DNA of 57,077 bases from Lysobacterales bacterium (GTDB taxonomy: Bacteria; Pseudomonadota; Gammaproteobacteria; Xanthomonadales; Xanthomonadaceae). Below are positions 4,640-57,077 of this stretch, piece by piece (the stretch's first letter is position 1; every line of letters starts with the position of its first letter). The position numbers and the translations under genes are program-made. The notes under the pieces are model-generated. The model was not told the origin of the DNA and searched no databases. It worked only from the letters and a program-made list of their open reading frames with translations. The stretch lies in contig JAFLEA010000014.1 of assembly GCA_017302035.1 (NCBI GenBank), forward strand, positions 1-57,077, given 5' to 3'.

Positions 4640-5122
4640 TTATTCCCCGGGCGACGCGCCGGACTCCGCAGGACATTCGATGCGATTGTCCTGCACGGCA
4701 ATGATCTGCCACTTTCCGTCGCGAAGGCTCCAGGTGTCGGTCCAGACCAGGCAACGCCGTTCCTGCTTCCCGTCTTCGAGAACAGCCGTCTTCGACTCGG
4801 CTCCGTACACCACAGCGATACTGGAGCCGAAAAACTTCACTTCCGCCTCATCCAGGCTGCAGTCTTTCGACCACCTGGTGGCAGGATCATGCACTGGCTC
4901 GCCGGCCGGCTTGCCGTAGCGAACACCCTTGGGCGAAGTCCCCCGGAAATCGTCGGCAAGCAGACCGGAAATGACCCACTTTCCGCCGCAGGCCTGCTCA
5001 GCCCAGGCCCTGGATTGCTCGATCATGTACTGCGCTGCCGCATCGGTATGCGCATCCTCCGCCAAGGAGGAACCTGCGGATGTCGCGATCACCAAAGCCA
5101 CGACTACAGAAGCCCTGCTCAT
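4640..5122 (-). CDS. Secreted NTF2-like (DUF4440-type) protein
   Basis: This 160-residue protein begins with a Sec signal peptide (hydrophobic core about 5-20, likely cleavage near SLAED) followed by a small alpha+beta domain. The pattern of N-terminal helices, central 'VVYGAES' strand and terminal 'WTDTWSLRDGKWQIIAVQDN' strands is typical of NTF2-like/DUF4440 proteins. Four cysteines in the mature part could form disulfides in the periplasm. GGAG sits upstream of the ATG. It is an accessory gene between pilB and pilA, in a stretch with lower G+C than the pil genes, which suggests later insertion. Its function is unknown; a link to pili would be only positional. Confidence 0.75.
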   Translation of the reverse strand: MSRASVVVALVIATSAGSSLAEDAHTDAAAQYMIEQSRAWAEQACGGKWVISGLLADDFRGTSPKGVRYGKPAGEPVHDPATRWSKDCSLDEAEVKFFGSSIAVVYGAESKTAVLEDGKQERRCLVWTDTWSLRDGKWQIIAVQDNRIECPAESGASPGE

Positions 5123-5589
5123 GGTCGTAGAGTCTCCAATGTCACCAGATAAAACTGATCAGTCGGCCACACGGCATTGCGACCGACAACGTCCGACCGA
5201 TTGGCCGACAACGCTTTCAGGTTCTCCCGAGAAACCGCCTGAATGAATCTCGGAGTGCGAGCACGAGAGATTCTGAGACGGGATTCAGGCGTCTGCGGGG
5301 ACACTGATCGTTACCGCTCATCCCGGTAGGCGTGATGCCCTCCAACTTACGCTGGTCATAACCATGTCCAACCCTGACCGACAGGGTTCTCGGGCCTTGC
5401 CTACGGCCTCCCGAATAAGTAGCTGAACGCAAGAATGGAATATTCGGGGCGAGAGTCAGACTGTTTTCAACCGTCGATTTACTGAATTGCAACGCATATT
5501 CCATGGGGATGTCGGGGATGGACCGACACGGTTGAAGCGCCGTTACAGCCATCCACACATGTCTGATCGTGGCTGTAATGTCCGGAAAG
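5123..5589. other. Intergenic region between NTF2-like gene and pilA
   Basis: The region is comparatively AT-rich and holds no persuasive gene. One minus-strand frame of about 150 codons crosses the pilA stop and terminator, which makes it very unlikely to be translated. The segment probably carries the promoter of the NTF2-like gene. No repeats or RNA genes were recognised. Confidence 0.4.
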
Positions 5590-5617
5590 CACAAACCCCG
5601 CCGAAGCGGGGTTTGTG
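5590..5617 (-). terminator. Terminator hairpin after pilA
   Basis: A perfect 12-bp stem (5590-5601 with 5606-5617) closes a 4-nt loop that reads TTCG on the minus strand. It lies 42 nt past the pilA stop. The U-tract is weak on the minus strand, so it may act as a stabilising hairpin at the 3' end of the abundant pilin mRNA as well as a terminator. Confidence 0.65.
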
Positions 5618-5659
5618 GTGAAGCGAACGGGGTGTAATGCTGCCCCGATTTACCATTTA

Positions 5660-6082
5660 TCAGGTACGGCACTCGGCCGGGCGGTACTTCTGAGCCAGGC
5701 TACCGCCAGTGTTGCAAACCCAAGTGACATTGGTTGCCGGGGGGGTACCCGCCACCAGAGCCGGGCTCGGGGTGAAAACAATGGTGCCGCCACCGGCACG
5801 CGCAGTGGTGGTCAGGGTGATCACACCGTCAGCAGCAATGGCCACACTGGCCGTGTTGCGGGTAGCCGTGGGAGCGGTCCAGCCACCGGCAAGGGCGTTG
5901 CCGTTGGCGGCATTTTCTACGACGGTCACCTTGGCAGCGGACACCAGGCCCATGCCTTCCGCAACGCGCGAGCGCACGACGTAGTCCTGATAAGCCGGCA
6001 GCGCGATGGCCGCCAGGATGGCAATGATCGCGACAACGATCATCAGTTCGATGAGGGTGAAGCCCTGCATGCTCTTCTTCAT
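5660..6082 (-). CDS. pilA: Type IV major pilin PilA
   Basis: PilA is the main subunit of the type IV pilus fibre. The 140-residue prepilin has a short basic leader MKKSMQG cut by PilD before Phe8, then the conserved hydrophobic helix [20 protein letters not shown] with Glu5 of the mature protein, and a C-terminal domain closed by the disulfide pair Cys123-Cys138 (the D-loop). The body is rich in Ala, Thr and Val. The upstream region carries a sigma-54 promoter and an upstream palindrome, and a strong hairpin follows. It is divergent from pilC. Confidence 0.96.
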
Positions 6083-6190
6083 GGTGTTTCCCCTTGGAGC
6101 GGATAGGTGGTTAGGACACTTGCCTGATTAGGACCCGTGTCCTTGCCGGAACGCGGGTTTCGCGTGGTTGAGGCCACGTGCGGATAATGA

Positions 6191-6206
6191 TGCAGGATGC
6201 GTGCCA
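6191..6206 (-). promoter_or_regulatory. Sigma-54 promoter of pilA
   Basis: On the minus strand the sequence reads TGGCACGCATCCTGCA, which matches the RpoN consensus TGGCACGNNNNTTGCA at every defined position but one, with the required 10 nt between the GG and GC dinucleotides. Transcription would start near 6180, giving a leader of about 100 nt before the pilA ATG. RpoN with the PilS-PilR two-component system controls pilA in Pseudomonas and in xanthomonads; the pilRS genes are not in this window. Confidence 0.88.
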
Positions 6207-6288
6207 ACAATTCCAAGGCAGCAGGCGGAGTCGAAGCGCACCCCGGCAAGGGTCGGAGCCAGATTCGCGTCCCGGAAGTGGCAATTTA

Positions 6289-6303
6289 CGTCACATTGTG
6301 ACG
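6289..6303. promoter_or_regulatory. Palindrome upstream of pilA, candidate PilR site
   Basis: CGTCACATTGTGACG is a perfect inverted repeat with 7-bp arms around a single central base. It is centred about 115 bp upstream of the predicted sigma-54 start site of pilA, a typical distance for an enhancer-binding protein. It also lies about 170 bp upstream of pilC on the other strand, so another regulator could use it for either gene. Assignment to PilR is an inference from position. Confidence 0.5.
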
Positions 6304-6468
6304 CAAGAGGGCATGCCGAGGGCTGGGAAGGGAGGTGCCGACCAGCGGCCAGCACCCGGCAAGGGCCGGGCCTGGAAGCGTGATGAGGGTTGCGTGTCAG
6401 GGGCGGGATTAGGGGATACCATGCTGTGATCAGGCCGGCGTGGGGATGCCGGCGGGGAGATTTGAAGC

Positions 6469-7734
6469 ATGTCCGCGACCCGCACCGCCATGAAGAAAGC
6501 GCCACCCGCACCTGTCGACCGTGCCACCAATCAGCTGGTGCCGTTCGTCTGGGAGGGAACCGACAAGCGCGGCGTGAAGATGAAGGGCGAATCGCCTGCG
6601 AGGAACGCCAACCTGCTCAAGGCAGAACTGCGTCGCCAAGGCATTCACCCTACATCTGTCAAGCCCAAGCCCAAGCCGCTGTTCGGTTCTGCAGGCCGGG
6701 TCATCACCCCCAAGGAAATTGCCTTCTTCAGCCGGCAGATGGCCACAATGATGAAGTCCGGCGTGCCGATCGTCTCTTCGCTGGAGATCATCGGCGGCGG
6801 GCAGAAGAATCCGCGGATGAAGGCCATGGTGGACGATATCCGCGTGAATATCGAGGGTGGCTCCTCAATGTATGAGGCGATCAGCAGACACCCTGTGCAG
6901 TTCGACGAACTGTTCCGCAATCTGGTCCGTGCCGGCGAAAGTGCCGGCGTACTGGAAACGGTGCTGGACACCATTGCCAGCTACAAGGAAAACATCGAGG
7001 CACTGAAGGGCAAGATCAAGAAGGCGCTGTTCTATCCGGCCATGACCATCGCTGTGGCGATCATTGTCAGCGCCATCCTGTTGATCTACGTCGTACCCCA
7101 ATTCGAACAAGTGTTTCGCGATTTTGGCGGCGACCTGCCTGCCTTCACCAAAATGATCGTGGCAGCGTCCAACTTCATGGTTTCCTACTGGTGGATATTT
7201 TTGACTATCACAGTTGGTGGCTTCTTCAGCTTTTTCTTCTTTTACAAGCGTTCACCCGCCTTCCAGCACTTCCTCGACAAGGTTGTACTGAAGATCCCGG
7301 TGATCGGCCCGATCATGCAAAACAGTGCCATTGCCCGCTTCGCCCGTACTACTGCCGTGACCTTCAAAGCTGGCGTGCCTTTGGTCGAAGCACTGGACTC
7401 GGTGGCCGGTGCCACCGGCAACAGCGTCTACGAGAAAGCGGTGCATCGCATCCGTGACGATGTGGCGGTCGGCTACCCGGTCAACCTTGCGATGAAACAG
7501 ACCCATCTGTTCCCGCACATGGTGATCCAGATGGCCGCGATCGGCGAGGAAGCCGGCGCATTGGACACCATGCTCTTCAAGGTGGCCGAGTACTACGAGC
7601 AAGAAGTCAACAACTCGGTCGACGCGCTGGCCAGCCTGATCGAGCCGATGATCATGGTGGTGCTTGGTGTACTGGTCGGTGGCATGGTGATCGGCATGTA
7701 TCTGCCCATCTTCAAGCTCGGCGCCACGATTTAA
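6469..7734 (+). CDS. pilC: Type IV pilus inner-membrane platform protein PilC
   Basis: PilC is the polytopic inner-membrane core on which PilB and PilT act. The 421-residue protein shows two T2SSF repeats (about 90-215 and 295-415), each ending in membrane helices: ALFYPAMTIAVAIIVSAILL, a second very hydrophobic segment near 240-262, and the final IEPMIMVVLGVLVGGMVIG. A Lys/Pro-rich linker (SVKPKPKPLFG) follows the short N-terminal domain. GGGGAG precedes the ATG. It is divergent from pilA and upstream of pilD, the usual xanthomonad order. Confidence 0.96.
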   Translation: MSATRTAMKKAPPAPVDRATNQLVPFVWEGTDKRGVKMKGESPARNANLLKAELRRQGIHPTSVKPKPKPLFGSAGRVITPKEIAFFSRQMATMMKSGVPIVSSLEIIGGGQKNPRMKAMVDDIRVNIEGGSSMYEAISRHPVQFDELFRNLVRAGESAGVLETVLDTIASYKENIEALKGKIKKALFYPAMTIAVAIIVSAILLIYVVPQFEQVFRDFGGDLPAFTKMIVAASNFMVSYWWIFLTITVGGFFSFFFFYKRSPAFQHFLDKVVLKIPVIGPIMQNSAIARFARTTAVTFKAGVPLVEALDSVAGATGNSVYEKAVHRIRDDVAVGYPVNLAMKQTHLFPHMVIQMAAIGEEAGALDTMLFKVAEYYEQEVNNSVDALASLIEPMIMVVLGVLVGGMVIGMYLPIFKLGATI

Positions 7735-7800
7735 CCGACTACCAGGCTATTCGAACCCCACAGCGGACCATGCGCCCTTCAAGGCCTGCTTGTCCCACCG

Positions 7801-7826
7801 AACCCCGCCCCGGCGGGGTTTGTTTT
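7801..7826 (+). terminator. Terminator after pilC
   Basis: A 9-bp G/C-rich stem (AACCCCGCC with GGCGGGGTT) and a 2-nt loop are followed by TGTTTT. It lies 66 nt downstream of the pilC stop, so pilD probably needs its own promoter or read-through. Confidence 0.8.
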
Positions 7827-8137
7827 GCCTGCAGCTGCGGCGGAGGCTTTCCTATGTCGCGGCGCGACAGGTTCAGGTGAACCGTGTCCTGCCGTCGGCA
7901 TGACACCGGAAGTCCGGCTCTCAGCGGCTTGCCAGCCATCCTCTAGGCCATGGGCGTGAGATTGCGATACAGCATCCACTGGGAGGAGGAGGGCCCGCGG
8001 GAATGTCCACTTCACCCGCACCAGCACGTTGAAGTACGCGCGGGAGGGGCCAGGGGAAATATCGATTCCAGACGGATATTCCCTCGGGCCCCTTTTTGCC
8101 CGTAACCTGAACGCCTTTCCGCGAACCGACGCCACGC
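7827..8137. other. Intergenic region before pilD
   Basis: No gene was found here. Short frames in this stretch have no protein-like composition. It likely contains the promoter for pilD-coaE; no strong consensus boxes were seen. Confidence 0.4.
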
Positions 8138-43983: not shown

Positions 43984-45162
43984 ATGAGCATGATCCTGAT
44001 CCGCAACGCGGACGTATACGCACCCGAGCCGCTGGGCCGCCGGGACCTGCTGCTCGGCGGCGGCAAGGTGCTGTGGATCGGCACCACCGGGGCGCCCGAC
44101 CTGCCCGCCGGCTTCGGCGCGCAGGTCGTGGACCTGGGTGGCCGCCGGCTGGCGCCGGGCCTGATCGACGGCCACGTCCATGTCACCGGCGGCGGCGGCG
44201 AGGCCGGCTTCGCCAGCCGGGTGCCGGCGCCGATGCTCTCGCGCTATACCCGCCATGGCGTCACCACGGTGGTCGGCCTGCTGGGCACCGACGACGTCGC
44301 CCGCGGCACCCGCGAGCTCGTGGCCCAGGTCAACGCGCTGCGCGAGGAAGGCCTGTCGGCCTGGGGATACGCCGGCGGCTACCACCTGCCGCCGGCGACC
44401 CTGACCGGCAGCGTGCGCACCGACCTGGTCTTCATCGACTGCCTGCTGGGCGTGGGCGAGCTGGCGATCAGCGACCACCGCTCCAGCCAGCCGACCCTGG
44501 ACGAGCTGCTGCGGATCGCGTCCGAAACCCATGTCGCCGGGCTGATGACCGGCAAGGCCGGCATCGTCCACCTGCACCTGGGCGACGGCGCGCGCGGCCT
44601 GGACCTGGTACGGCGCGCGCTGGACCAGAGCGAGCTGCCGCCGAGGGTGTTCAACCCGACCCACGTCAACCGGCGCAAGGCGCTGTTCGACGAGGCCATC
44701 GAACTGGCCCGGCGCGGCTGCAGCATCGACATCACCGCCTTCCCGGTGGCCGAGGGCGAGGACGCCTGGAGCGCGGCCGACGCCCTGGTCCGCTACCTCG
44801 ACAGCGGCGCCCCGCGCCAGCGGGTGACCGTCAGTTCCGACGCCGGCGGCTGCCTGCCGTGCTTCGACGAACAGGGGCGCGTGTGCAGCATGGAGGTGGG
44901 CCATTCCGGCGCGCTGATTGGAACCCTGCGCGAGCTGCTGGCCCGCGGCATCGCCCTGGAAGACGCGCTGCCCGCCTTCACTTCCAACGTCGCCGAGTTG
45001 CTGCGCCTGCCCGGCAAGGGCCGGATCGCCGCCGGAGCCGATGCCGACCTGGTGGCGCTGGATGCCACCGGCGCGATCGTCGACGTGTTCGCCGGCGGCC
45101 ACCCGCACCTGCGCGAAGGCGCCATCGTGCGACGTGGTACGTTCGAGACGCAAGACACCTGA
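43984..45162 (+). CDS. iadA: Isoaspartyl dipeptidase (IadA-like)
   Basis: IadA cleaves beta-aspartyl dipeptides; beside cphB and cphA the natural substrate would be beta-Asp-Arg released from cyanophycin. The 392-residue amidohydrolase has metal ligands His64/His66 ('GHVHVTGGGGEAG'), His198 ('HLHLGDG'), His227 ('PTHVNR') and Asp286 ('SSDAGG'), and Tyr133 ('GGYHLP'). The bridging carboxylated lysine of Escherichia coli IadA ('GVKCAISDHRS') appears replaced by glutamate here ('GVGELAISDHRS', Glu159), so the metal bridge may be a native carboxylate. It is 16 bp ahead of cphB. Confidence 0.9.
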   Translation: MSMILIRNADVYAPEPLGRRDLLLGGGKVLWIGTTGAPDLPAGFGAQVVDLGGRRLAPGLIDGHVHVTGGGGEAGFASRVPAPMLSRYTRHGVTTVVGLLGTDDVARGTRELVAQVNALREEGLSAWGYAGGYHLPPATLTGSVRTDLVFIDCLLGVGELAISDHRSSQPTLDELLRIASETHVAGLMTGKAGIVHLHLGDGARGLDLVRRALDQSELPPRVFNPTHVNRRKALFDEAIELARRGCSIDITAFPVAEGEDAWSAADALVRYLDSGAPRQRVTVSSDAGGCLPCFDEQGRVCSMEVGHSGALIGTLRELLARGIALEDALPAFTSNVAELLRLPGKGRIAAGADADLVALDATGAIVDVFAGGHPHLREGAIVRRGTFETQDT

Positions 45163-45178
45163 AACAGCGGAGCGATAG

Positions 45179-46018
45179 ATGCCAAGCAAGCCCGTCAACG
45201 GGGAGCACCGCGGCTGGATCATCCCGATCGGCGGCGCAGAGGACAAGGACACCAACCCGCGCATCCTGCAGCGCTTCGTCGAACTCAGCGGCGGCGACCA
45301 GGCCGACATCGTGGTCATCCCCACCGCGAGCCGGCTGAAGGAATCGGGCAACAACTACCAGGAACTGTTCCGCGCCATGGGCGCGCCTCGGGTCGAGGTG
45401 CTGGACTTCGATACCCGCCGGGACTGCCAGGAGGAAGGCCGGCTGGCGCGGCTGTCCGAGGCCAGCGGCCTCTTCTTCACCGGCGGCAACCAACTGCGCC
45501 TGTCCACCATCCTCGGCGGCACCCACGTGGCGCGCACCATCCGCCTGCGCAATGCCCAGGGCGTGACCGTGGCCGGCACCAGCGCCGGCGCCGGCTTCCT
45601 CAGCGAGCACATGATCGCCTTCGGCAGCGAGGGCTCCTCGCCGCGCGCCAGCAGCGTGCGTCTCGCGCCCGGGCTGGGCCTGACCAACCGCTTCGTGATC
45701 GACCAGCACTTCCGCCAGCGCGACCGCCTCGGTCGCCTCACGGCCGCGCTGGCCTACAACCCGTTCGCCATCGGCATCGGCCTGGACGAGGACACCGCCG
45801 CGTTCATTTCCCCGGACGACGTCCTGGAAGTCGAAGGCAGCGGCGCAGTCACCGTGGTCGATGCCCACGACCTGCAGTTCTCCTCGATGGCCCACGCCGA
45901 CGAGGACGACCCGGTGTGCATGCTCGGCCTGGGCGTGCACATACTGGTCGCCGGTGCCACCTTCAACCTGCACACGCGGCGGGCCTCGGCCGGAGGCCTG
46001 GCTACCCGCAAGACCTGA
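45179..46018 (+). CDS. cphB: Cyanophycinase CphB
   Basis: CphB is the intracellular exopeptidase that degrades cyanophycin to beta-Asp-Arg dipeptides. The 279-residue S51-like serine peptidase has the nucleophile Ser135 in GTSAGAG, preceded by 'GLFFTGGNQLRLS' and followed by 'LGLTNRFVIDQHFRQRDRLGRL' and 'IGIGLDEDTAAF', all as in characterised cyanophycinases. No secretion signal, so it is the cytoplasmic CphB rather than the extracellular CphE type. It lies between iadA and cphA, 21 bp before the latter. Confidence 0.96.
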   Translation: MPSKPVNGEHRGWIIPIGGAEDKDTNPRILQRFVELSGGDQADIVVIPTASRLKESGNNYQELFRAMGAPRVEVLDFDTRRDCQEEGRLARLSEASGLFFTGGNQLRLSTILGGTHVARTIRLRNAQGVTVAGTSAGAGFLSEHMIAFGSEGSSPRASSVRLAPGLGLTNRFVIDQHFRQRDRLGRLTAALAYNPFAIGIGLDEDTAAFISPDDVLEVEGSGAVTVVDAHDLQFSSMAHADEDDPVCMLGLGVHILVAGATFNLHTRRASAGGLATRKT

Positions 46019-46039
46019 TCCGGACAAGGAACACCCACC

Positions 46040-48106
46040 ATGCGCATCCTCGAACGCTCCGTCTACGTCGGTCCCTCGCAGCATGCGCACTTCCCGGTGA
46101 TCCGGCTGCTGCTGGACCTGGGCGAACTGGAGCAGTGGCCCACCGCGCGCCTGGGCCCGGCCTTCGTCGACGGCCTGGTGGCGGCCCTGCCCGGCCTTGC
46201 CGAGCACGGTTGCTCCTACCGCGAGCCCGGGGGCTTCCTGCGCCGCATGCGCGAGGACGAGGGCACCTGGCTGGGCCACGTGTTCGAGCACGTCGCGATC
46301 GAACTGCAGAACATCGCCGGCGAGGACGTCACCTTCGGCAAGACCCGCAGCGTCGACGGCCGCCCGGGCGTCTACAGCGTGGTCTACGAATACGCCCAGC
46401 GCGAGGAAGGCATCGCCGCCGGCGACCTGGCCCTGCGCCTGCTCTGCTCGCTGCTGCCCGAAGCCATCCGCCCCGAAGGCAGCGTGCCCGGGGACTGGAG
46501 CTGGGAGCAGGCGCGCGACGACTTCATCCGCTACGCCCAGCGCCGCGCGCTGGGGCCGTCCACCGCCTCGCTGGTGCGCGCGGCCGAGGAGCGCGGCATC
46601 CCCTGGCTGCGGCTCAACGCGCAGTCGCTGGTGCAGTTCGGCCATGGCAAGTACCAGCAGCGCATCCAGGCCACCATCACCGGCAAGACCCCCTACATCT
46701 CGGTCGAACTGGCCAGCGACAAGGAGGAGACCAACAAGATCCTCGGCTCGCTCGGCCTGCCCGTGCCGCGCCAGCACCTGGTCTCCAGCCAGACCGAGGC
46801 GCTCAAGGCCGCGAGCCGGCTCGGCGGCCCGGTGGTGCTCAAGCCCTACAACGGCAACCATGGCCGCGGCATCACCATCAACATCAGCGGCGACGAGGAG
46901 ATCCGCGCCGCGTTCGACGCCGCGCGCGAGCATTCGCGCTCGGTGATCGTGGAGACCTTCCAGACCGGCGACGACCATCGCCTGCTGGTGGTCAACGGCG
47001 CACTGGTCGCGGCGACCCGGCGCACGCCCGGCCACGTGGTCGGCGACGGCCAGCGCACCGTGGCCGAACTGGTCGAGATCGTGAACCAGGATCCACGGCG
47101 CGGCGTGGGCCACGAGAAGGTGCTGACCCGACTCGAGCTCGACCGCGAAGCCAACCTGATGCTGGAACGCGTCGGCTACACCGCCGACAGCGTGCCGCCG
47201 CCCGGCGAGAAGGTGTTCCTGCGCTCCACCGCCAACCTGTCCACCGGCGGCACCGCCACCGACGTCACCGACGTCATCCATCCCGACAACCGCGACATGG
47301 CGGTGCGCGCGGTGCGCGCGATCGGCCTGGACGTGGGCGGCGTGGACTTCATCAGCCCCAACATCGCCGAGAGCTACAAGAGCATCGGCGGCGCGATCTG
47401 CGAGGTCAACGCCGCGCCCGGCTTCCGCATGCACGTGGCGCCCAGCGAAGGCACCCCGCGCGACGCCGCCGGGCCGGTGATCGACATGCTGTTCCCGCCG
47501 GGCTCGCCCTCGCGGGTGCCGATCGCCGCGATCACCGGCACCAACGGCAAGACCACCACCGCGCGCATGCTCGCGCACATCGCCAAGATGGCCGGCTACA
47601 CCCCGGGCCTGACCACCACCGACGGCGTCTACATCGACGGCCAGCGCACGGTGGAAGGCGACATGACCGGCCCGGTATCGGCGCGGATGGTGCTGTCCGA
47701 CCCGCACATCGACCTGGCGGTGCTGGAGACCGCGCGCGGCGGCCTGCTGCGCTCCGGCATGGGCGTGCCGGAGGTGGACGTGGGCGCGGTGATCAACGTC
47801 GCCGCCGACCACCTCGGGCTCAAGGGCATCGACACCCTGGAGCAGCTGGCCGAGATCAAGCGGATCGTGGTCGAGGTGGCCCCTGCAAAGCGCCGAACCC
47901 GAGGAAGAAATGCACCCGATGCCTGTTGCCGGAAACCGTCCCTGGCGCCGACATCGACGCCAGCGGTATCTGCAGCCCCTGCCGCCAGTACGCGACTTCG
48001 CCACCGGGCCACTCGGCAAGCGCACCGCACCGGGATGACCTCGAGCGCACCTTGCGCGCCGCGCGCAATACGGCGGGCACTGCTTACGACTGCATCGTGC
48101 CGCTGA
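46040..48106 (+). CDS. cphA: Cyanophycin synthetase CphA, 3'-truncated at ~47880
   Basis: CphA polymerises Asp and Arg into cyanophycin with ATP. The authentic part is about 613 residues: N-terminal domain (about 1-160), ATP-grasp domain (about 220-470, 'GGPVVLKPYNGNHGRGITINI', 'EVNAAPGFRMHVAPSEG') for aspartate addition, and the start of the Mur-ligase domain with the loop 'ITGTNGKTTTARM' (about 497-509) for arginine. After 'KRIVVEVA' (47880) homology ends; the frame then runs 75 codons out of register through the next gene to 48106. Family members are about 850-900 residues, so the Mur-ligase C-terminal part is lost and arginine addition should fail. Confidence 0.93.
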   Translation: MRILERSVYVGPSQHAHFPVIRLLLDLGELEQWPTARLGPAFVDGLVAALPGLAEHGCSYREPGGFLRRMREDEGTWLGHVFEHVAIELQNIAGEDVTFGKTRSVDGRPGVYSVVYEYAQREEGIAAGDLALRLLCSLLPEAIRPEGSVPGDWSWEQARDDFIRYAQRRALGPSTASLVRAAEERGIPWLRLNAQSLVQFGHGKYQQRIQATITGKTPYISVELASDKEETNKILGSLGLPVPRQHLVSSQTEALKAASRLGGPVVLKPYNGNHGRGITINISGDEEIRAAFDAAREHSRSVIVETFQTGDDHRLLVVNGALVAATRRTPGHVVGDGQRTVAELVEIVNQDPRRGVGHEKVLTRLELDREANLMLERVGYTADSVPPPGEKVFLRSTANLSTGGTATDVTDVIHPDNRDMAVRAVRAIGLDVGGVDFISPNIAESYKSIGGAICEVNAAPGFRMHVAPSEGTPRDAAGPVIDMLFPPGSPSRVPIAAITGTNGKTTTARMLAHIAKMAGYTPGLTTTDGVYIDGQRTVEGDMTGPVSARMVLSDPHIDLAVLETARGGLLRSGMGVPEVDVGAVINVAADHLGLKGIDTLEQLAEIKRIVVEVAPAKRRTRGRNAPDACCRKPSLAPTSTPAVSAAPAASTRLRHRATRQAHRTGMTSSAPCAPRAIRRALLTTASCR

Positions 48107-48981
48107 GCGGCGGCAAGGACAGCCTCTATCTGCTCCACCGCCTCAAGGTCGATTACGGCCTGCGCGTGCTGGCTTTCACCTGCGACATCGACCTGCCTCC
48201 GGTAGCCTGGAACAACATCCGGCTCGCCCTGCGCCGGCTGGACATCGATCACGTCGTCTGGCGTCCGGCCTTCGGCTTCCTCACCCGGCTGTTCCGCTAC
48301 CTGCTGTGCAACCAGGAAGCGCGCGGCGCGGTGTACACAGTGTCTTACGTCTATGCCCCGCTGTTCGAGGGCGCAGCCATCCGGCTGGCAATGGAAAAGA
48401 ACGTGCCTCTCGTGCTCGCCGGCTATTCGCCGGGCCAGCCGGAGCCCGAGCGCATGCTCTACGAATTCTCCCCCGCGCTCATCAGCAGCGAGGACTGGAC
48501 CCCGCCCCATCTCGCCGAATGCGGCGGCTTCTCGGCGGCCGACCTGAGCCATTTCTACAATCCGCTCACGCTGCCCGGCGGAACGCGCTTTCCCCGCTAT
48601 CTCGCGCCCTATCACGCCTGGGATTACGATCAGGCCGAAGTCATCCGCCGCGTCACCGAGCTCGGACTGGTGCAGCGCAGCCACCATGCCAACCCCATCG
48701 TCAGCAACTATCCAATCAACTGGCTGATGATGTATTCGGACCTCCGCCACTTCGGCTACAACCCCTACACGCCCGAGTTCTCCGCGCTGATCCGCGAAGG
48801 CAAGGCCAGCCTGGGTTACTGGAAGCTGATGACGCCAGTGGTGAACTTCATGATCCGCAACAAGCTCGGCATGGGTCGAGAGGTGAAGCGCAGTATGGCG
48901 TGGCTGGGACTGGAAGAAGGCGATCTGCGCATCACCCTGCCCAAGGGCGCCTACGACCCACCGATGTTGCGACGGAACTGA
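47881..48981 (+). CDS. PP-loop ATPase / amidotransferase-like protein, 5'-truncated
   Basis: This frame has no start codon of its own: it emerges directly from the cphA break. The ~365 visible residues start with a zinc ribbon CxxC (in 'KKCTRCLLPET') and a second CxxC ('GICSPC'), then the PP-loop 'IVPLSGGKDSLYLLHRL' of the adenine-nucleotide alpha-hydrolase fold. The layout resembles N-acetyl sugar amidotransferases (WbpG/PseA-like) and thiolation enzymes, which adenylate a substrate and transfer ammonia or sulfur. The stop is one base before the next ATG, so it leads an operon with the acyl ligase and reductase. The true substrate is unknown. Confidence 0.82.
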   Translation, partial: PCKAPNPRKKCTRCLLPETVPGADIDASGICSPCRQYATSPPGHSASAPHRDDLERTLRAARNTAGTAYDCIVPLSGGKDSLYLLHRLKVDYGLRVLAFTCDIDLPPVAWNNIRLALRRLDIDHVVWRPAFGFLTRLFRYLLCNQEARGAVYTVSYVYAPLFEGAAIRLAMEKNVPLVLAGYSPGQPEPERMLYEFSPALISSEDWTPPHLAECGGFSAADLSHFYNPLTLPGGTRFPRYLAPYHAWDYDQAEVIRRVTELGLVQRSHHANPIVSNYPINWLMMYSDLRHFGYNPYTPEFSALIREGKASLGYWKLMTPVVNFMIRNKLGMGREVKRSMAWLGLEEGDLRITLPKGAYDPPMLRRN

Positions 48982-48982
48982 C

Positions 48983-50767
48983 ATGGACGCCCCACCGCCC
49001 ACCGTCCCCGCTCGATTGCGCCATCGTGCGCTGCTGAGCCCCACGGCGGCCGCTTTCATGCATCGGGAAACGGACGGCGAAGGATGGCGGGCGGTGAGCT
49101 GGCGCGAGGCCGTCGACACCGTGGACACCCTCGCCGCGAACTTCACCGGGCTTGGCGTCCGCCCCGGCGACCGCATCGCCATCATGTTGCCGACGTGCCC
49201 GCAATGGGAATACTGCCATCAGGCTGCCCTCGCCGCCGGGGGCGTGGTGGTCGGGCTCGACAGCCACGACTCGGAACAGAACCTGCGACACGTTCTTCTG
49301 CTCACCGAACCGCGGGCGCTGATCGTGCAGACGCTGGCCGATGTCGAACGCCTGAGCGCGTTCTGGCCGCAGGCCGAGCTTTTCATCATCGTCGAACGCG
49401 CCGACGTGCGCCCCCGCGCGGTGCATTGGCTTGCTGACCTGCTGGGAACGACACCGCAGCCCCCGGCACGGTCTTCCCGCCTGCCGCAGCCCGACGACCT
49501 CGCGACGATCATTTTCACGTCGGGCAGTACGGGCCAGCCAAAAGGCATCGCCTACACGCACCAGCAGCTGCTGCTCGCGACCGACGCCCTGATCGAACGC
49601 TTTCCCTCGGTGCGTGAGGGTGATCGCATGGTGTGCTGGCTGCCGATCTCGAACCTGTTCCAGCGCATCCTGAACCTGTTCGCGATGAGTTGCGGTGCGA
49701 CGAGCTATTTTGTCACCAGGCCGGAGGAAGTCCTGCGCCTTACGCCGGACATTCGCCCGACCCTGTTCGTGGGCGTGCCGCGCTTCTTCGACAAGCTGCA
49801 CGGCGGCATCGTCGCCGAGCTGGAGCGACAGCCCGTGCTGCCGCGTGCGATGGCCCACGCCGCGTGGGCCATCGGCTGCCGGCGTGCGGCTGCCCTGCGC
49901 GACGGCCTTGCGCCGCCCCCCTGGGTGCGGCTGCTTCATCCGCTGGCTGACAAGGTGTTGCGCCGCATCCGGGCACTGCTTGGGCCCGACCTCCAGTTCA
50001 TGGTGAGCGGCTCGGCGCCCTTGCCTGCCTCACTGCTGGCGCGATTTCACGGACTGGGCTGGCTGGTGCTGGAGGCCTATGGCATCAGCGAGAACGTCAT
50101 GCCCGTCGCCATCAACCAGCTCCACGATTACCGTTTCGGCAGTGTGGGCCGCCCCCTGCCCGGCAACGAACTCCGTTTTGCCGCCGATCGCGAGCTACTG
50201 CTGCGCGGGCCTGGCGTCTTTCGCGGCTACTATCGCGACAGCGCGCCCAGCGACAACCTCGATGCCGAAGGCTTCCTGCACACCGGCGATTACGCACGCC
50301 TCGACGAGGACGGCTACCTCTGGCTGGAAGGGCGCAAGAGCGAAGTGTTCAAGACGTCGACCGGCCGCCGCATTGCGCCGGTGCCGATCGAAGCCGCACT
50401 CAAGACGCTCGCCTACGTCGACCACGCCGTCGTCGTGGGCCGGGACCAGCCGTTTCCAGTCGCTGTGCTTACCCTCGACGCGAGACATCCTCGCCTCGCA
50501 GCGATGGCTGGTGCAGCCCTGCAGCACTCGATCGCCTCCGACGCCCTCGCCGCGTGCGCAGCGTTACCGGACCACCAGCGCCCCGGCGCACTGATCGTTT
50601 CCCCGCACCCGCTCACCGTCGCCAACGGCGAGCTGACCCCCAACCTCAAGCTCAGGCGCCGGCAAATCGAAACCCGATTCTCCGATTCGATCGACGAGGC
50701 GTATCGCCGAGCCGCCCAGCAGCCCCGCGCCGCACTCACCATGCTGCCCGTCATCGAGGTGCCATGA
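48983..50767 (+). CDS. Long-chain acyl-AMP/CoA ligase (AMP-binding)
   Basis: The 594-residue ANL-family enzyme activates a carboxylic acid with ATP. Motifs: P-loop 'IIFTSGSTGQPKG' (176-188), 'FMVSGSAPLPASLLARFHGLGWLVLEAYGISEN' (A4/A5), 'FLHTGDYARLDEDGYLWLEGRKSEVFKTSTGRRIAPVPIEAAL' (A7-A8). The long spacing and 'LPISNLFQRILNLFAMSCGATSYFV' segment match long-chain FadD15-type ligases; the C-terminal domain is shorter and more divergent around the A10 lysine region ('LTPNLKLRRRQIE'). It overlaps the reductase ATG (ATGA), so acid activation and reduction are probably consecutive. Confidence 0.9.
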   Translation: MDAPPPTVPARLRHRALLSPTAAAFMHRETDGEGWRAVSWREAVDTVDTLAANFTGLGVRPGDRIAIMLPTCPQWEYCHQAALAAGGVVVGLDSHDSEQNLRHVLLLTEPRALIVQTLADVERLSAFWPQAELFIIVERADVRPRAVHWLADLLGTTPQPPARSSRLPQPDDLATIIFTSGSTGQPKGIAYTHQQLLLATDALIERFPSVREGDRMVCWLPISNLFQRILNLFAMSCGATSYFVTRPEEVLRLTPDIRPTLFVGVPRFFDKLHGGIVAELERQPVLPRAMAHAAWAIGCRRAAALRDGLAPPPWVRLLHPLADKVLRRIRALLGPDLQFMVSGSAPLPASLLARFHGLGWLVLEAYGISENVMPVAINQLHDYRFGSVGRPLPGNELRFAADRELLLRGPGVFRGYYRDSAPSDNLDAEGFLHTGDYARLDEDGYLWLEGRKSEVFKTSTGRRIAPVPIEAALKTLAYVDHAVVVGRDQPFPVAVLTLDARHPRLAAMAGAALQHSIASDALAACAALPDHQRPGALIVSPHPLTVANGELTPNLKLRRRQIETRFSDSIDEAYRRAAQQPRAALTMLPVIEVP

Positions 50768-51903
50768 ACCGCTATTTTCTCACGGGCGCCTCGGGTGCCG
50801 TCGGCAGCGCGATCGTCCCGATGCTGCTCGGAGACCGCAACACCCGGGTACGTCTCCTTCTGCGGGCTCAATCGGATGAGCACCTTGCACAGCGCTTCGA
50901 CGAGATCTGCCGATACTGGCACCTCTCGCCCGATGCCGAAGCCCGCGGCAGGCTGCAACCGATGCGCGGCGACGCCTCACAGCCCGAGTTCGGCCTCTCC
51001 GCCGCGGACTATGCAGCCCTGGCGACCGACACCACCCACATCATTCACTGCGCCGCCAGCGTGCGCATGAACGATACCCTCGATTACGCCCGCCGCTCGG
51101 CGGTCGGCTCCGCTCAGGCCATCCTCGCGCTTGCCCGCAGCCTGGCCGCCAAGGGCACATTGCAGAAAGTGGAGTTCGTCAGCACGGTCGGCATCGCCGG
51201 CAAGCGCCAGGGCCTCCTGCCGGAGCGCTGGATCGACGAACCGCGCGCCTTCCACAACACCTACGAGCAATCGAAAGCCGAGGCCGAGGAACTCGTTCGC
51301 GCCGCCATTGAACTGGAAGGGCTGCCGATCACGGTGCACCGACCGAGCATGGTCGTTGGTGACTCCCGCGACGGGCGCATCATCCACTTCCAGATCTTCT
51401 ACTACATCTGCGAGATCCTCTCCGGACGCCGAACCTTCGGCTTGTACCCCGATTTCGGCGATGTGAAGCTGGACGTCATCCCGGTGGACTGGGTGGCGCA
51501 CGAAATCGTCAGCAGCAGCCGCGATCCGCACGCCACAGGCCGCATCTTCCACCTGTGCTCCGGTCCCGAGCGCGCTCCGCGTCTGGTCGACCTCAAGCAG
51601 GTCCTGCGGAAAAGCTTCCGCTCCCATGGACTACCGGTCCCGATGGGCATCACCATTCCGCGGAGATGGTTCGGGGCCCTGCCCCGCACCATCGGCTGGC
51701 TGCTCCCCTTGCGCAGGCGTCGTGCCCTCGGCACCCTGCCGATCTACATGGACTACCTCGCCGACCAGCAGGATTTCGGCAACGCGGACTATCTCGCGCG
51801 GCTGGCGCAGCGCGGCGCCACGCTGCCTGACCCGGCGAGCTACCTGCCCGTCGTCCTCGATCGCTACCTCCGGCGGCCCCCTCTGGACAGCGCTTCCGCC
51901 TAG
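50764..51903 (+). CDS. Thioester-reductase-like SDR
   Basis: A 379-residue extended short-chain dehydrogenase of the thioester reductase / fatty acyl-CoA reductase type. It has TGASGAVGS (7-15) for NAD(P), the 'HIIHCAASVRMNDTLDYARRSAVGSAQ' stretch typical of NAD_binding_4 domains, the catalytic Ser140/Thr141 ('FVSTVGIAGKRQG') and Tyr167-x3-Lys171 ('NTYEQSKAEAEEL'), and 'ITVHRPSMVVGDSRDG'. Such enzymes reduce acyl thioesters or adenylates to aldehydes or alcohols. It is translationally coupled to the acyl ligase and overlaps the end of the convergent MMPL gene by 4 bp. Confidence 0.88.
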   Translation: MNRYFLTGASGAVGSAIVPMLLGDRNTRVRLLLRAQSDEHLAQRFDEICRYWHLSPDAEARGRLQPMRGDASQPEFGLSAADYAALATDTTHIIHCAASVRMNDTLDYARRSAVGSAQAILALARSLAAKGTLQKVEFVSTVGIAGKRQGLLPERWIDEPRAFHNTYEQSKAEAEELVRAAIELEGLPITVHRPSMVVGDSRDGRIIHFQIFYYICEILSGRRTFGLYPDFGDVKLDVIPVDWVAHEIVSSSRDPHATGRIFHLCSGPERAPRLVDLKQVLRKSFRSHGLPVPMGITIPRRWFGALPRTIGWLLPLRRRRALGTLPIYMDYLADQQDFGNADYLARLAQRGATLPDPASYLPVVLDRYLRRPPLDSASA

Positions 51904-54218
51904 TGCTTCGCGGGGTTCTCCCGTCGTCCCCACGGCAGGCGCACGCGACTCCACAGGACCAGCAGCGCGGGCAACAACAGCAGTTCCATGAGTTGGCCCG
52001 ACAGCAGGCCGATGGCGGTGAGCATGCCGAAGTTGGACGTGGGCACGAAGGCCGAGGTAGACAGGACCACGAACTGGGACACCAGCAACAAGGACACCGC
52101 AACGACGGCGCGCCCGGACGCCTCAAAGCTGCGCGCGACCGCAAACACGGCGCTGTGACCCTGGGCGCGGCGATGCAGGTAGCTATGGAAGAGGTGGATG
52201 GTGTCGTCGACGGTGATGCCCAGCACCACGCCAGCAATGAGCACTGTCGCCATGTCGAGGTAGATGCCGGCGGCTCCCATCAGGGCGAACACGAAATACA
52301 GCGGCGCCAGGTTGGGCAGCATGCCGATCACCGCAGCCGGGAATGAGCGCCACAGCAGCACCAGCAGAATGAAGATCTGGCCAAATGCGCCGATGAAGCT
52401 GTGCAACTGGCCAACGACCAGCAGATCTTCCTGATCGGCGAACAGGCGCCCGTAACCACCGATCTGCCATTTGAGGTCCGGGGCATCGACCGTTGCGATG
52501 AGCGCCTCGATCTGCTCGATCACGCCCTGGATCGCGTTCGCGCCATGTACGTTGACGTTCAGCATGATGCGCATGCGCTGATATTCGCCGTTCACAAGCT
52601 CCTGCACGTCGCGTCCGTCATAGATCAGAAGCAGCTGGCTGAGCAGCTTGTCGTCGTCGGGCAGGCGGCGGAACTGCGGATCTTCCTCGTTGAAGGCCCA
52701 GTTCATTTCCTCGACGATGTCCATCATCGACAAGCTCCGGTCGACGGCCGGCAGGGCCTCGACGCGCTCCTGCAGCGCCTTGATCGCCTGCAGGCGCTTC
52801 GCGTTCTTGAATGCGTCGCGGCCTGGACCGTCGACGACGATCTCGAGCGCCGTCACACCGACGAGTTCGGACTCGACCTTCGCTGTCGCCAGGGTCAGCG
52901 GGTGACGCTCGCCGAAGAACTTCAACAAGTCCGACTCGGCCTCGACGCTCAGCACCATCGGCAGCGCCGCGATCACCGCAACCAGGGCACCACCTGCCAC
53001 CCATCCTGCCTGGCGCATGCCAATGCGCGCCAGCGCGAAAGAAAACCGTCGCGTCCACGCGAAACCGGAACCGCTCTTGGGCCAGCGCCGGTTGTCGAAC
53101 TTCATCAACAGGGCCGGGACGAGATAGAACACCACGAAGTAGATTGTGACCACCCCAACCGCGGCAATCACGCCGAAGACCTGGATCGGCGGAATCTGCA
53201 CCAGCACCAGGCTCAACATGCCGGCCGCGGTCGTGAGCACATTGAACATGGACGGTGCATGCACGCTCTGCAAGGCGAAGACGATGCGCTTGGGCCGGCG
53301 GAATCCCAAGTCCTGCATGCGCTTTGCAGCCGCGTAGAGGTGCAGCAGGTTCGAAACGGTGTAGGCCGACAGCAAGGTGGGCGTCATCGCCGTGACCAGC
53401 GTGTAGGGCTGGCCAACGGCCGCGAGCAGCCCCACGCAGACCACCACAACGGTGCTCATCGCCACGGCGCCGATCACGACCGGCACGACCCGGCCCACCA
53501 CCCAGTAAAGCAGCGCGAGCCCAAGCCCCATCACGAGGGGGGTGAACAGCAGCGTGTCGTGCAGCATCGAGCGCAGCTCCGCCGCGTCGAGCGCGACGGT
53601 TCCTGCCACCGCCACGAGCTTGTCCTGCAGCTTCTCGTCGGCCGCCGCAGCAAGGAACTCACGCTCGATCGACTGTCGCTGCCGGCTCTCATCGAGCTTG
53701 CGGGTACGCACCACCACGGCCAGCGACTTGCCATCCTTCGAGGCGAGCCAGCCCGGCACGAAGCGATCGGCAAGCACCCGGGCCCGGCGCGCCTCCTCGG
53801 TCTGCACCTGCAGCTTGTCAGGATCGATCAGGGCCTCGACGACGAAGCCATCCTCCGTGCCGGCGATGTGCTCGACACTCGTGACGGAAAACACCCGGTC
53901 GACGTCGGGATGCCGCCCCATGCGCTCGACAAGCCGATGGATGGCTGCGAGCGTGGGCGCGGCGTAGATGTGCTCGTCGGTAAACAGCCCGATCAGGAAT
54001 TCGTCGCTCGGAAACTCCCTGCGCAGTTCCCGCTCGAGCACCGTCGCCGGGGCGTCCGACGGAAAGTAGAGTCCGGGGGCATTGTTGATGTCGAGCCGCA
54101 ACAGCATGGCGCCGAAGATCACATGCGCAACAACGATGATCACCAGCGCCGGCCGCCAGCGAATCAGGTGCGGCTGCATGACCGCCAGCTTGAGCGACTG
54201 GAACAAGGAATTGCGCAT
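51900..54218 (-). CDS. MMPL/RND-family transporter
   Basis: A 772-residue polytopic protein of the MMPL (HpnN-like) RND group: one helix (about 25-42), a periplasmic loop (to about 230), a five-helix bundle (about 230-370), a seventh helix (about 408-428), a second periplasmic loop (to about 600), and five final helices containing 'GVVLGITVDDTIHLFHSYLHRR' with the Asp pair of the proton relay. MMPL proteins move lipids, hopanoids or lipid-linked metabolites to the outer envelope. It is downstream of the DUF1302 and LolA-like genes on the same strand, likely one transport unit. Confidence 0.92.
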   Translation of the reverse strand: MRNSLFQSLKLAVMQPHLIRWRPALVIIVVAHVIFGAMLLRLDINNAPGLYFPSDAPATVLERELRREFPSDEFLIGLFTDEHIYAAPTLAAIHRLVERMGRHPDVDRVFSVTSVEHIAGTEDGFVVEALIDPDKLQVQTEEARRARVLADRFVPGWLASKDGKSLAVVVRTRKLDESRQRQSIEREFLAAAADEKLQDKLVAVAGTVALDAAELRSMLHDTLLFTPLVMGLGLALLYWVVGRVVPVVIGAVAMSTVVVVCVGLLAAVGQPYTLVTAMTPTLLSAYTVSNLLHLYAAAKRMQDLGFRRPKRIVFALQSVHAPSMFNVLTTAAGMLSLVLVQIPPIQVFGVIAAVGVVTIYFVVFYLVPALLMKFDNRRWPKSGSGFAWTRRFSFALARIGMRQAGWVAGGALVAVIAALPMVLSVEAESDLLKFFGERHPLTLATAKVESELVGVTALEIVVDGPGRDAFKNAKRLQAIKALQERVEALPAVDRSLSMMDIVEEMNWAFNEEDPQFRRLPDDDKLLSQLLLIYDGRDVQELVNGEYQRMRIMLNVNVHGANAIQGVIEQIEALIATVDAPDLKWQIGGYGRLFADQEDLLVVGQLHSFIGAFGQIFILLVLLWRSFPAAVIGMLPNLAPLYFVFALMGAAGIYLDMATVLIAGVVLGITVDDTIHLFHSYLHRRAQGHSAVFAVARSFEASGRAVVAVSLLLVSQFVVLSTSAFVPTSNFGMLTAIGLLSGQLMELLLLPALLVLWSRVRLPWGRRENPAKH

Positions 54219-54246
54219 AGAGAGCCCGCTAAGCCGCCTGGCTACG

Positions 54247-55524
54247 TCAGAATTTCGCCTGCCAGCCCACCATCACCAGATCATTGCGGTCGTAGAAACC
54301 GCCCAGCGTCTTTTGCGCGCCATCGAACAGATGCGCGGCGATGTAGATCTCGTGCTGGTCGATGCCCGTGTAGGAGAGCTTGGGATTCAGGTACAGATCG
54401 CGCTCGTCGAGCCCGACGACGAAGCGCAGGTCCGCGCGCCAGCGCCCGTGCGCGAACGGGTGCTCGATCTCGCCGTTGAAGGTATAGATCTCCTTGCGCT
54501 CCAGCACACGCTGCTCGACGAAGGTCCTGTGACCGCCGAGTTGCAGGGTCACCCGCGTCTCCGCATCGCCGGGGAAGAATTCGGCGCCGACCACCATATC
54601 GAAACCGGGCTTGGTCAGATACTGGAAGCCGCGCGTCGTCACCGGCACGTCACTGCTCCACGCCGCCTCCATGCGCCAGGTCGCCCCCAGGCGCTCGGCC
54701 TCGAGCTCCGCGCCCACGACCGTACTGTAGGGATGCACCGCCTGCAGCACGCCAGGTGTGACGCGGTAGTAGGGTTGCGACTGACGCACGCGCTGGATGC
54801 TGAAGCCGTAATCCAGTTCGTCGCCACCACGCGTCAGGCGAACGCCGCCGCCGCCGGTGTCATGGTTCGCGTCCTTCACGCGAAACCCCTTCATCAAGGG
54901 CAGGTCACCGATCCCGAGCAGCCGGCCTGCGCGCGTATCCACCGGATTCCAGACGCTGCGCCGGTCGGGCATCACCGCGTCGTCGAACGTCGGCAGCCAC
55001 ACCGCGTCGATCTTGAAATCGTCGGCGAAGCGCTCCAGACGCACGGCCGGCACGGCGCGCCGGCGTTCGGGGAGCTTGTCGAGTATCACCCGGGTGAGGT
55101 CGGCGCGGCTCATGCGGTCGATCGGCGAAATCTCGTCCACCCGGCCCCACAGCACGTTCTGCGCACCGACCGTCAGTCGGGTGGCGTCGTCACGCCAGCG
55201 CAGATAGTTCTCGCCGTAATCGACCCGCGTCCGCGTGAAGTCGCGGTCGCCAAACTGCGCGTTGGCATCGAAGCGCGCACCGAGCGCATATTCGAACGCC
55301 CCGCTGCTGCCCTTCGCGCTCACCGCGCCGTGAAGCAGCCCGGTGCCCGACGCGTCGGGATGGTCGAAGATGCGCCCCGCTTCCATCCAGAGCTTGTCCA
55401 CCCCCGCCGCGAACGCATCCCCGCCGTCGTCGGCCGCAAGGCCGCTCATCGGCAAACCCGCCACCAATGCCACCACCAGCGCCGTTGCCAGCGGGCCGCG
55501 CGCCTGCCTGCCAAATTCCACCAT
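54247..55524 (-). CDS. DUF1302-type outer-membrane protein
   Basis: The 425-residue protein has a signal peptide (about 1-30, cleavage near GLAADD), amphipathic beta strands throughout, and a C-terminal phenylalanine ('MVGWQAKF') typical of outer-membrane barrels. The 'RVDYGENYLRWRDDATRLTVGAQNVLWGRVDEISPIDRMSRADLTR' stretch is the DUF1302 signature. DUF1302 genes often travel with LolA-like and MMPL genes, as here. It probably forms the outer-membrane part of an export path; substrate unknown. Confidence 0.87.
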   Translation of the reverse strand: MVEFGRQARGPLATALVVALVAGLPMSGLAADDGGDAFAAGVDKLWMEAGRIFDHPDASGTGLLHGAVSAKGSSGAFEYALGARFDANAQFGDRDFTRTRVDYGENYLRWRDDATRLTVGAQNVLWGRVDEISPIDRMSRADLTRVILDKLPERRRAVPAVRLERFADDFKIDAVWLPTFDDAVMPDRRSVWNPVDTRAGRLLGIGDLPLMKGFRVKDANHDTGGGGVRLTRGGDELDYGFSIQRVRQSQPYYRVTPGVLQAVHPYSTVVGAELEAERLGATWRMEAAWSSDVPVTTRGFQYLTKPGFDMVVGAEFFPGDAETRVTLQLGGHRTFVEQRVLERKEIYTFNGEIEHPFAHGRWRADLRFVVGLDERDLYLNPKLSYTGIDQHEIYIAAHLFDGAQKTLGGFYDRNDLVMVGWQAKF

Positions 55525-55570
55525 CAGCTACCCCCTCGATGTCACCGTCCGCCCCCGCGCACAACCTGGC

Positions 55571-56407
55571 TCAGGGCCGGAACTCCTTTTCCGTTCGCTC
55601 TTCCTCGAGCGCCTTGGAGCCGAACAGGCGTGCCGGCAGGCCTCGATCGTAGACCATGCGATTGACCGTCAACCGGGTCTGGTGCCCGCTGCCGAGATCG
55701 GTCAGGGTGCTGTCCATCACCGTCCAGTAACCCTTGACCTGTTCATGCTTGTCGACGATCAGGCGCTTGGTCGGCTTGTCCATGTCCTTCTCGAAGAAAT
55801 CGACCCGCATCGGCAGCAGGCTTGCCGGATCGATCCAGCTGACGCGCCGCAGATACACCGAATTGCTCGCCTCGACCGGAACGCTCTCGAGCACCTCGCA
55901 CTCGATCTTGCCGACCCGCTCGCGCCCGATGATGCGATGCGCGTCCATGGCCGGCTTGCGATCGCGCAGATCCTCATAGTAGTAATCCGAATTCACGAAG
56001 CGGCCGCCCTTGCGGTTGGCATCCACCCTGCGCACCCGCTGCATCGCCGGAAGGTAGATCCATTGGTTCGAGGTGCCGTCGGCGGCATCGAGCGTCAGCA
56101 GGCCGGTGCCCTCGATGTCGGCCGGCTCGGTGAAGCGGATCAGCGTCGACACTTCGCCCGACGCCCCGCTCAGCCGGTACAGGAACAGGCTGCGCGACCG
56201 CGGCGCGCGCCCCTCTTCGGTCAGCGTCATGGTGACGGCGGACGAGGCGTCGTTGCCGTCGGCGCGGTCATACACCCGTTGGGCGAGCTTCGCGCCCGCA
56301 TCGTCGGCCATCGCCTGCGCGCACATCAACAGCCCGGCAAGCAGGCCCACGAGACCGCCCCGCATATGCCACGCCCGCCCGCAGGGACGCGCTGGTGTCG
56401 TCGTCAT
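55571..56407 (-). CDS. LolA-like outer-membrane lipoprotein-sorting protein
   Basis: A 278-residue periplasmic protein with a signal peptide (hydrophobic core 'GGLVGLLAGLLMCAQAMA') and a LolA-like half-barrel: 'VYDRADGNDASSAVTMTLTEEG', 'RSRSLFLYRLSG', 'TLIRFTEPADIEGTGLLTLDAADGTSNQWIYLPAMQRVRRV', 'VSWIDPASLLPMRVDFFEKD'. This family resembles lipid carriers that shuttle between membranes and pairs with MMPL/DUF1302 genes. GAGGG lies 8-12 nt before the ATG chosen at 56407; the frame is open upstream. A lipid-shuttle role is inferred from fold and neighbours. Confidence 0.85.
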   Translation of the reverse strand: MTTTPARPCGRAWHMRGGLVGLLAGLLMCAQAMADDAGAKLAQRVYDRADGNDASSAVTMTLTEEGRAPRSRSLFLYRLSGASGEVSTLIRFTEPADIEGTGLLTLDAADGTSNQWIYLPAMQRVRRVDANRKGGRFVNSDYYYEDLRDRKPAMDAHRIIGRERVGKIECEVLESVPVEASNSVYLRRVSWIDPASLLPMRVDFFEKDMDKPTKRLIVDKHEQVKGYWTVMDSTLTDLGSGHQTRLTVNRMVYDRGLPARLFGSKALEEERTEKEFRP

Positions 56408-56498
56408 CGTCAGATCCCTCGAAAGTGCGCCGCGCAAGGCTCGCGCGCCGTACGATTCTAACCTACGCACCGCGCCGCGGACGCCCGTGCCACGAGGC

Positions 56499-56955
56499 TC
56501 AGGACGCGGGACCGAGCCTTTCCAGGCGCTTCTTGGCAACGTAGCTCTTGATGCGCTGCAAGGGGTGGCGGTTGCCCATCCAAAGACGCTTGTGCACGAA
56601 GCGGCTCAGCCGCGCATCGAGGTAGGTGTACCACGGTACACAGCGCAGCTCCTCGGGGTGCAGCAGCGCGATCAGCGCCTGCGTGACGATGAAGCCGGTG
56701 CACAGCTTGCAGCCGGCGATCGAGCTCGGCCCCTTGCGCGCCTTCAGGTTGATGAACTTCGGGTCGAGATACTTCAGGTGATACATCTCGGGCGCGAAGC
56801 CGAGCATGAACTGCACGATCTTCTCGTCCTCGCTCATCTCGGGCCTGATCGCAAAGTAGTCGGCATACGGCATGCCCTGCGGCCCGAAGGCCAGCACCCC
56901 CGCCCCGAGCCCCAGCGGCACGGCCGCGATCGTCGCCAGCCCGCGCGCACTCGCC
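56499..56955 (-). CDS. ThiF/E1-like adenylyltransferase, C-terminal fragment
   Basis: About 150 residues match the C-terminal part of ThiF-family (E1-like) enzymes: 'LGLGAGVLAFGPQGMPYADYFAIRPEMSEDEKIVQF', 'GPSSIAGCKLCTGFIVTQALIAL' with one CxxC of the zinc site, and 'NRHPLQRIKSYVAKKRLERL'. The nucleotide-binding N-terminal half is missing. The frame remains open to the window edge, but the residues beyond about 56950 are an antisense reading of an FHA domain, so the gene is cut there. It would be the first gene of the LolA-DUF1302-MMPL strand. Confidence 0.75.
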
Positions 56956-57077
56956 TGACCGATCTGAACAGTACCAACGGCACCTTCGTGAACCGCAAGC
57001 GTATCGAAGGCTCCTGCCTGCTGCAGGAAAACGACATCATCCATTTCTTTACGGCGGAGTTTCGCCTCCGCCGGCAC
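56955..57077 (+). CDS. FHA-domain fragment
   Basis: Forty-one codons read 'LTDLNSTNGTFVNRKRIEG' and 'LLQENDIIHFFTAEFRLRRH', the C-terminal half of a forkhead-associated phosphothreonine-binding domain with its conserved S-x-N-G-T-x-V-N. Its N-terminal half is absent to the left, where the opposite-strand ThiF fragment begins, and the frame leaves the window to the right. The 'LQENDIIHF..AEFRL' ending resembles FHA modules of signalling proteins (for example FHA-EAL proteins), which is only a suggestion. Confidence 0.8.
   Translation, partial: MTDLNSTNGTFVNRKRIEGSCLLQENDIIHFFTAEFRLRRH

Follow-up and report, generated by a model that had tools for sequence, protein, structure and literature searches.

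A truncated cphA gene at the first join of a very probable three-genome chimeric contig in a Pseudoxanthomonas draft genome

Organization of the contig

The window analysed here (57,077 bp) is the entire contig C32 of the draft genome G000, which comprises 2,912,550 bases in 125 contigs, with completeness put at 99.36% and contamination at 0.57%. By its figures G000 appears to be UWPOB_PSEUDO1, tabulated as a Pseudoxanthomonas genome of 2.91 Mb in 125 contigs, with a mean of 23,300 bp and a GC content of 69.3% (PMC8103865). The sections of that report used here describe 86 metagenome-assembled genomes (MAGs) from a photosynthetic phosphorus-removing bioreactor and an assembly run with default SPAdes settings; its table also includes the Thauera MAG UWPOB_THAU1 and six Accumulibacter MAGs, one of them at a mean relative abundance of 11.4 (PMC8103865). 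Across the three samples, whose read runs are SRR13786854, SRR13786855 and SRR13786856, PSEUDO1 is listed at relative abundances of 1.50, 2.18 and 0.47 and THAU1 at 0.56, 0.58 and 0.41. In its right-hand part the contig harbors, in order, the 5' part of a cyanophycin synthetase gene (cphA), a segment of Thauera sequence that includes a PP-loop gene, and a short tail from a third genome (Table 1). Neighboring parts overlap at each of the two joins in a few bases common to both parents.

Table 1. Features of the right-hand part of the contig.
Feature	Position	Strand	Basis
cphA 5' part (cyanophycin synthetase), 614 codons	46040..47882	+	TIGR02068 positions 1-601 of 862; G016 identity ends at 47882
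First join; both parents contain the 4 bp GCCC	47879..47882	.	G016 and THAU1 matches overlap
Thauera sequence, 9,077 bp	47879..56955	+	L036 9996-19072 (UWPOB_THAU1), one mismatch, no gap
PP-loop gene, WbuX-like below curated cut-off, complete but for start codon	47902..48981	+	TIGR03573 score of 101 bits, cut-off 203
Only mismatch to THAU1, inside PP-loop gene ATG	47903..47903	+	Segment alignment to L036
Rest of Thauera segment	48983..56955	.	AMP-dependent acyl ligase (+), thioester-reductase-like SDR (+), MMPL transporter (-), frame without family (-), LolA-like protein (-), cut ThiF-like frame (-)
Second join; both parents contain the 5 bp TCGCC	56951..56955	.	THAU1 and G049 matches overlap
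Tail, 127 bp, part of FHA domain of presumed FHA-EAL gene, Accumulibacter-like genome	56951..57077	+	100% identical to G049

The cphA locus and the first join

The Pseudoxanthomonas-type sequence of the contig ends with the last cphA base, at 47882. Positions 44194-47882 are 90.9% identical in DNA to G016, a relative of the same genus, and 79-84% identity to G030 and G019 is observed from 43975 on; left of 43975 the sequence is assigned by the composition test given below and by that test only. The identity to G016 halts within 2 bp of position 47880, where the original prediction had placed the end of cphA homology. The truncated gene product scores 857 bits on TIGR02068, above the curated cut-off of 850, and does not comprise complete ATP-grasp and Mur-ligase halves. 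With this score, automatic annotation may still name it cyanophycin synthetase.

The whole 613-residue cphA query was matched in 8 of 30 relatives, and in one (G016) of the 16 belonging to the same genus. In G016 an intact cphA of 932 residues precedes another Mur-ligase protein, of 599 residues, which we take to be cphA'. The contig shares with the iadA-cphB-cphA-cphA' locus of G016 the genes iadA and cphB and the first 614 codons of cphA, and differs from it in having neither the 3' part of cphA nor any of cphA'. An own-genome search detected no 3' third of cphA elsewhere in G000, and a cphA' query retrieved only the truncated cphA itself. Aligning cphA with close relatives, as had been suggested, thus confirms where the match stops and leaves the 3' part unaccounted for in the bin. 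A 34% match on contig C48 was considered as the lost end of cphA and rejected (E 0.0128; C48 has Mur-ligase domains). A second Mur-ligase frame lies closely 3' of cphA, on the same strand, in all eight relatives with a full-length match (45-50% identity over about 120-137 residues), and cphA-cphA' is a conserved pair in these genomes.

We performed a search for signatures of mobility around the join. No transposase or integrase family was found in a Pfam scan of eight proteins (cphA and the seven frames right of the join), three of which had no match to any family. No tRNA or Rfam family was detected at 46000-57077, and no direct repeat closely flanks the first join within the surrounding kilobase. 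Two repeat families occur near the join, one wholly inside cphA and the other of 16 nt and 88% identity with copies at 47624 and 47944. These searches bear out the earlier reading of the join as free of transposase, integrase, tRNA and direct repeat, and a signature of integration (mobility gene, tRNA site, target repeat) is absent as far as the scanned proteins extend.

The Thauera segment

Among 42 loci retrieved with the PP-loop protein from a collection of species genomes, which may leave out the window's own genome, the best (L036, on contig JAFLDS010000013.1 of THAU1) is 100% identical. Six loci were compared at the DNA level, and the next best after L036 reached 75.6% identity over 3.7 kb. 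There is no change across 9,052 bp of the segment, and the sole mismatch adjoins the join, 21 bp past the last cphA base. The chance that one random mismatch would fall at most 25 bp from the left edge of the segment is 0.003.

The PP-loop gene is without a start codon because this mismatch hits its ATG. The L036 copy begins with ATG. In the contig, the PP-loop frame from 47806 encodes no Met, Val or Leu before the zinc ribbon, which confirms the reported lack of ATG, GTG or TTG, and the first upstream start codon in this frame is a GTG at 45916. The claim that both genes are broken at one point therefore holds for cphA but not for the PP-loop gene, which is not truncated and has a start codon one base off in an otherwise identical gene. 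Base 47903 is probably wrong, as would fit a junction that only a few reads support.

Two MAGs share this DNA and either could be wrong, so that the segment might be native to Pseudoxanthomonas and the THAU1 contig might be the chimera. The gene neighborhood argues against this reading. The segment adjoins obgE and proB of THAU1 on their downstream side, and the order obgE-proB-PP-loop-acyl ligase recurs in L037, L040 (titled Rhodocyclaceae) and L041 (titled Thauera), three of a further 12 loci examined. Another, L048, has obgE, proB and the PP-loop gene up to the end of the latter, and neither obgE nor proB was found in the available stretch of the remaining eight. The distribution of the PP-loop gene points the same way, as it is present in one of 297 genomes of the window's family, namely G000, and in none of the other 296 (E at most 1e-20). 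A chimeric THAU1 contig is thus extremely unlikely. A search of 31 genomes gave G000 and two partial matches (38-39%). Against G000, the THAU1 DNA upstream of the segment gives six alignments no longer than 879 bp; their identities span 67-85%, and none is near-identical.

A comparison of tetranucleotides across the join, which had also been suggested, places the segment with Thauera: the chunk 47879-56878 lies at a distance of 0.094 from the THAU1 mean and 0.186 from the PSEUDO1 mean, and six chunks taken left of the segment are nearer the PSEUDO1 mean, but this is a weak test, in which 4 of 16 PSEUDO1 reference chunks are also nearer THAU1.

A plasmid origin of the 9-kb segment was rejected, as no near-identity match was found in a plasmid collection. 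The acyl ligase gene lies directly 3' of the PP-loop gene in 11 of the 13 loci L036-L048, from Thauera, Aromatoleum, Thiobacillus, Methylomonas and others, and the other two loci end there; the two genes form a conserved cluster. Two MAG contigs titled Klebsiella pneumoniae (L061 and L070) carry a PP-loop gene of 59% identity that resembles those of environmental gammaproteobacteria, and these titles appear doubtful.

The second join and the tail

The original prediction described a single join. A second one lies at the other edge of the segment, where the match to THAU1 stops at 56955 though the THAU1 contig continues. The tail was found at 100% identity in G049 and at 83% in the next best genome; 98 of 297 genomes of the THAU1 family, an even draw from a larger group, match it at E 0.001. 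In G049 the corresponding stretch sits within a complete gene that, as regards its partner domain, we take to be FHA-EAL. An origin of the tail from THAU1 was rejected for want of a significant match (best E 0.9), and so was an origin from elsewhere in G000, where a search returned the tail itself and two short matches of 80-81% that fall entirely or for the most part within the Thauera bases of the query.

Sequence identities suggest that G049 groups with Accumulibacter; its match to the PP-loop gene, at 29%, was uninformative as to a name. A query of 9,990 bases from an Accumulibacter MAG has two main matches in G049, of 76 and 85%. The same query gives 80 and 90%, 78 and 87%, and 75 and 82% in three genomes titled Accumulibacter, and 72 and 76-77% in two titled Propionivibrio. 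An intergenic stretch of about 200 bp from this MAG (L055:4734-4938) recurs at many sites in its own genome, in G110 and in G049, with 72-100% identity among the matches listed, and is a dispersed repeat of this group.

The second join bears on whether the contig reflects a genomic event. An insertion would have host sequence on both sides, but what follows position 56955 is G049 sequence. A large insertion and illegitimate recombination, both proposed originally, are not supported, as the right part is all but identical to THAU1 and is followed by a third genome. A real rearrangement of another kind, within one genome holding all three parts, would fit the binning of the contig into a genome of 0.57% contamination. 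The tail and the Thauera segment, however, match different genomes at 99.99-100%, and THAU1 does not have the tail, which makes such a rearrangement exceedingly improbable.

A very recent transfer was also considered, in which at least 9 kb of Thauera DNA would have entered cphA of the reactor Pseudoxanthomonas by microhomology, ending cyanophycin synthesis and hardly changing since, and only the right contig end would be an artefact. Both organisms shared the reactor, a real join in the sample would yield an identical contig, microhomology also suits end-joining in a cell, and the lost cphA end is absent from the bin. Such a transfer nevertheless needs an unrelated error to have occurred at the far edge of the segment as well, and it would have to account for an unchanged segment whose sole mismatch stands beside the join; the proteins scanned include no mobility gene, and neither a tRNA nor a flanking repeat was found. 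We consider it very unlikely.

Assembly signatures and origin of the chimera

The Thauera segment and the tail match different genomes nearly perfectly, and the borders at both joins are sharp. We compared contig ends sampled from PSEUDO1 and THAU1 (141 ends, of which four, from C29 and C30 of G000, were excluded because they read as N). Among the 137 readable ends, three pairs of the 40 THAU1 ends share exactly 127 bp, and no pair of the 97 PSEUDO1 ends does so, tip overlaps of 32 and 45 bp being all that appeared there. Overlaps of 127 bp are what a de Bruijn graph built at k = 127 produces at the meeting points of paths. The lack of a PSEUDO1 pair and the default settings named for the assembly, since the default k values of SPAdes stop at 55, count against this signature. 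The tail has the length of the THAU1 end overlap and is one assembler k-mer long, with k taken over from the THAU1 ends; the contig thus ends one k-mer after entering the third genome. When these sequences were joined at random 200,000 times, a shared stretch of 4 bp was reached in 2.8% (0.028) at the first join, and one of 5 bp in 0.8% (0.008) at the second. Overlaps of 4-5 bp are too short for shared k-mers, so chimeric library fragments seem likelier than a repeat in the graph.

Three genomes are joined here inside genes, two of them from one metagenome, and neither a mobility gene nor a tRNA nor a close repeat was found; on these sequence comparisons the contig is therefore very probably a three-genome chimera that arose during library preparation or short-read metagenome assembly. 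The intact cphA of G016 supports this conclusion, and the chimeric contig listed among the original explanations is now strongly favored. As to the parents having been in one sample, PSEUDO1 (by its figures) and THAU1 share a table, and for G049 the link is its grouping with Accumulibacter. A few chimeric fragments might have arisen at the 4-5 bp microhomologies, and the assembler would have accepted them at places where few reads covered the true continuation. The deviating base at 47903 would then be a mistake in a junction path with little support, and the real cphA would continue into a part of the genome outside the bin.

Microhomology-induced chimeric Illumina reads with wrong bases near the join are reported, in the part of the study used here, for formalin-fixed human samples (PMC8674242). 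The contig resembles these reads in its joins at short shared sequences and in the wrong base near a join, and differs in that it stems from bioreactor DNA and is known from assembled sequence alone. It also resembles inter-genome chimeras of short-read metagenomes, with near-perfect parts from what are probably different members of one community, joins within genes and a k-mer-long end. It differs from these in having two joins.

The apparent break of cphA is thus very probably not a genomic event and is hardly informative about the cell's biology. The loss of cyanophycin synthesis with retention of cphB and iadA, as first put forward, is unsupported, since the contig is very probably chimeric. 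About 9.2 kb of the public draft genome, equal to 16% of the contig and 0.3% of the whole, very probably come from other organisms, and its completeness and contamination figures fail to reveal them. Taken at face value, the contig would suggest, mistakenly, that Pseudoxanthomonas has a PP-loop, acyl ligase and MMPL cluster and has lost cyanophycin synthesis.

A separate observation concerns the left part of the window, where positions 4001-8000 have a G+C content of 58-64%, against about 70% elsewhere in 1-47878. The open reading frames of this region presumably belong to type IV pilus genes, which they resemble, and include a pilin-like frame at 5660-6082.
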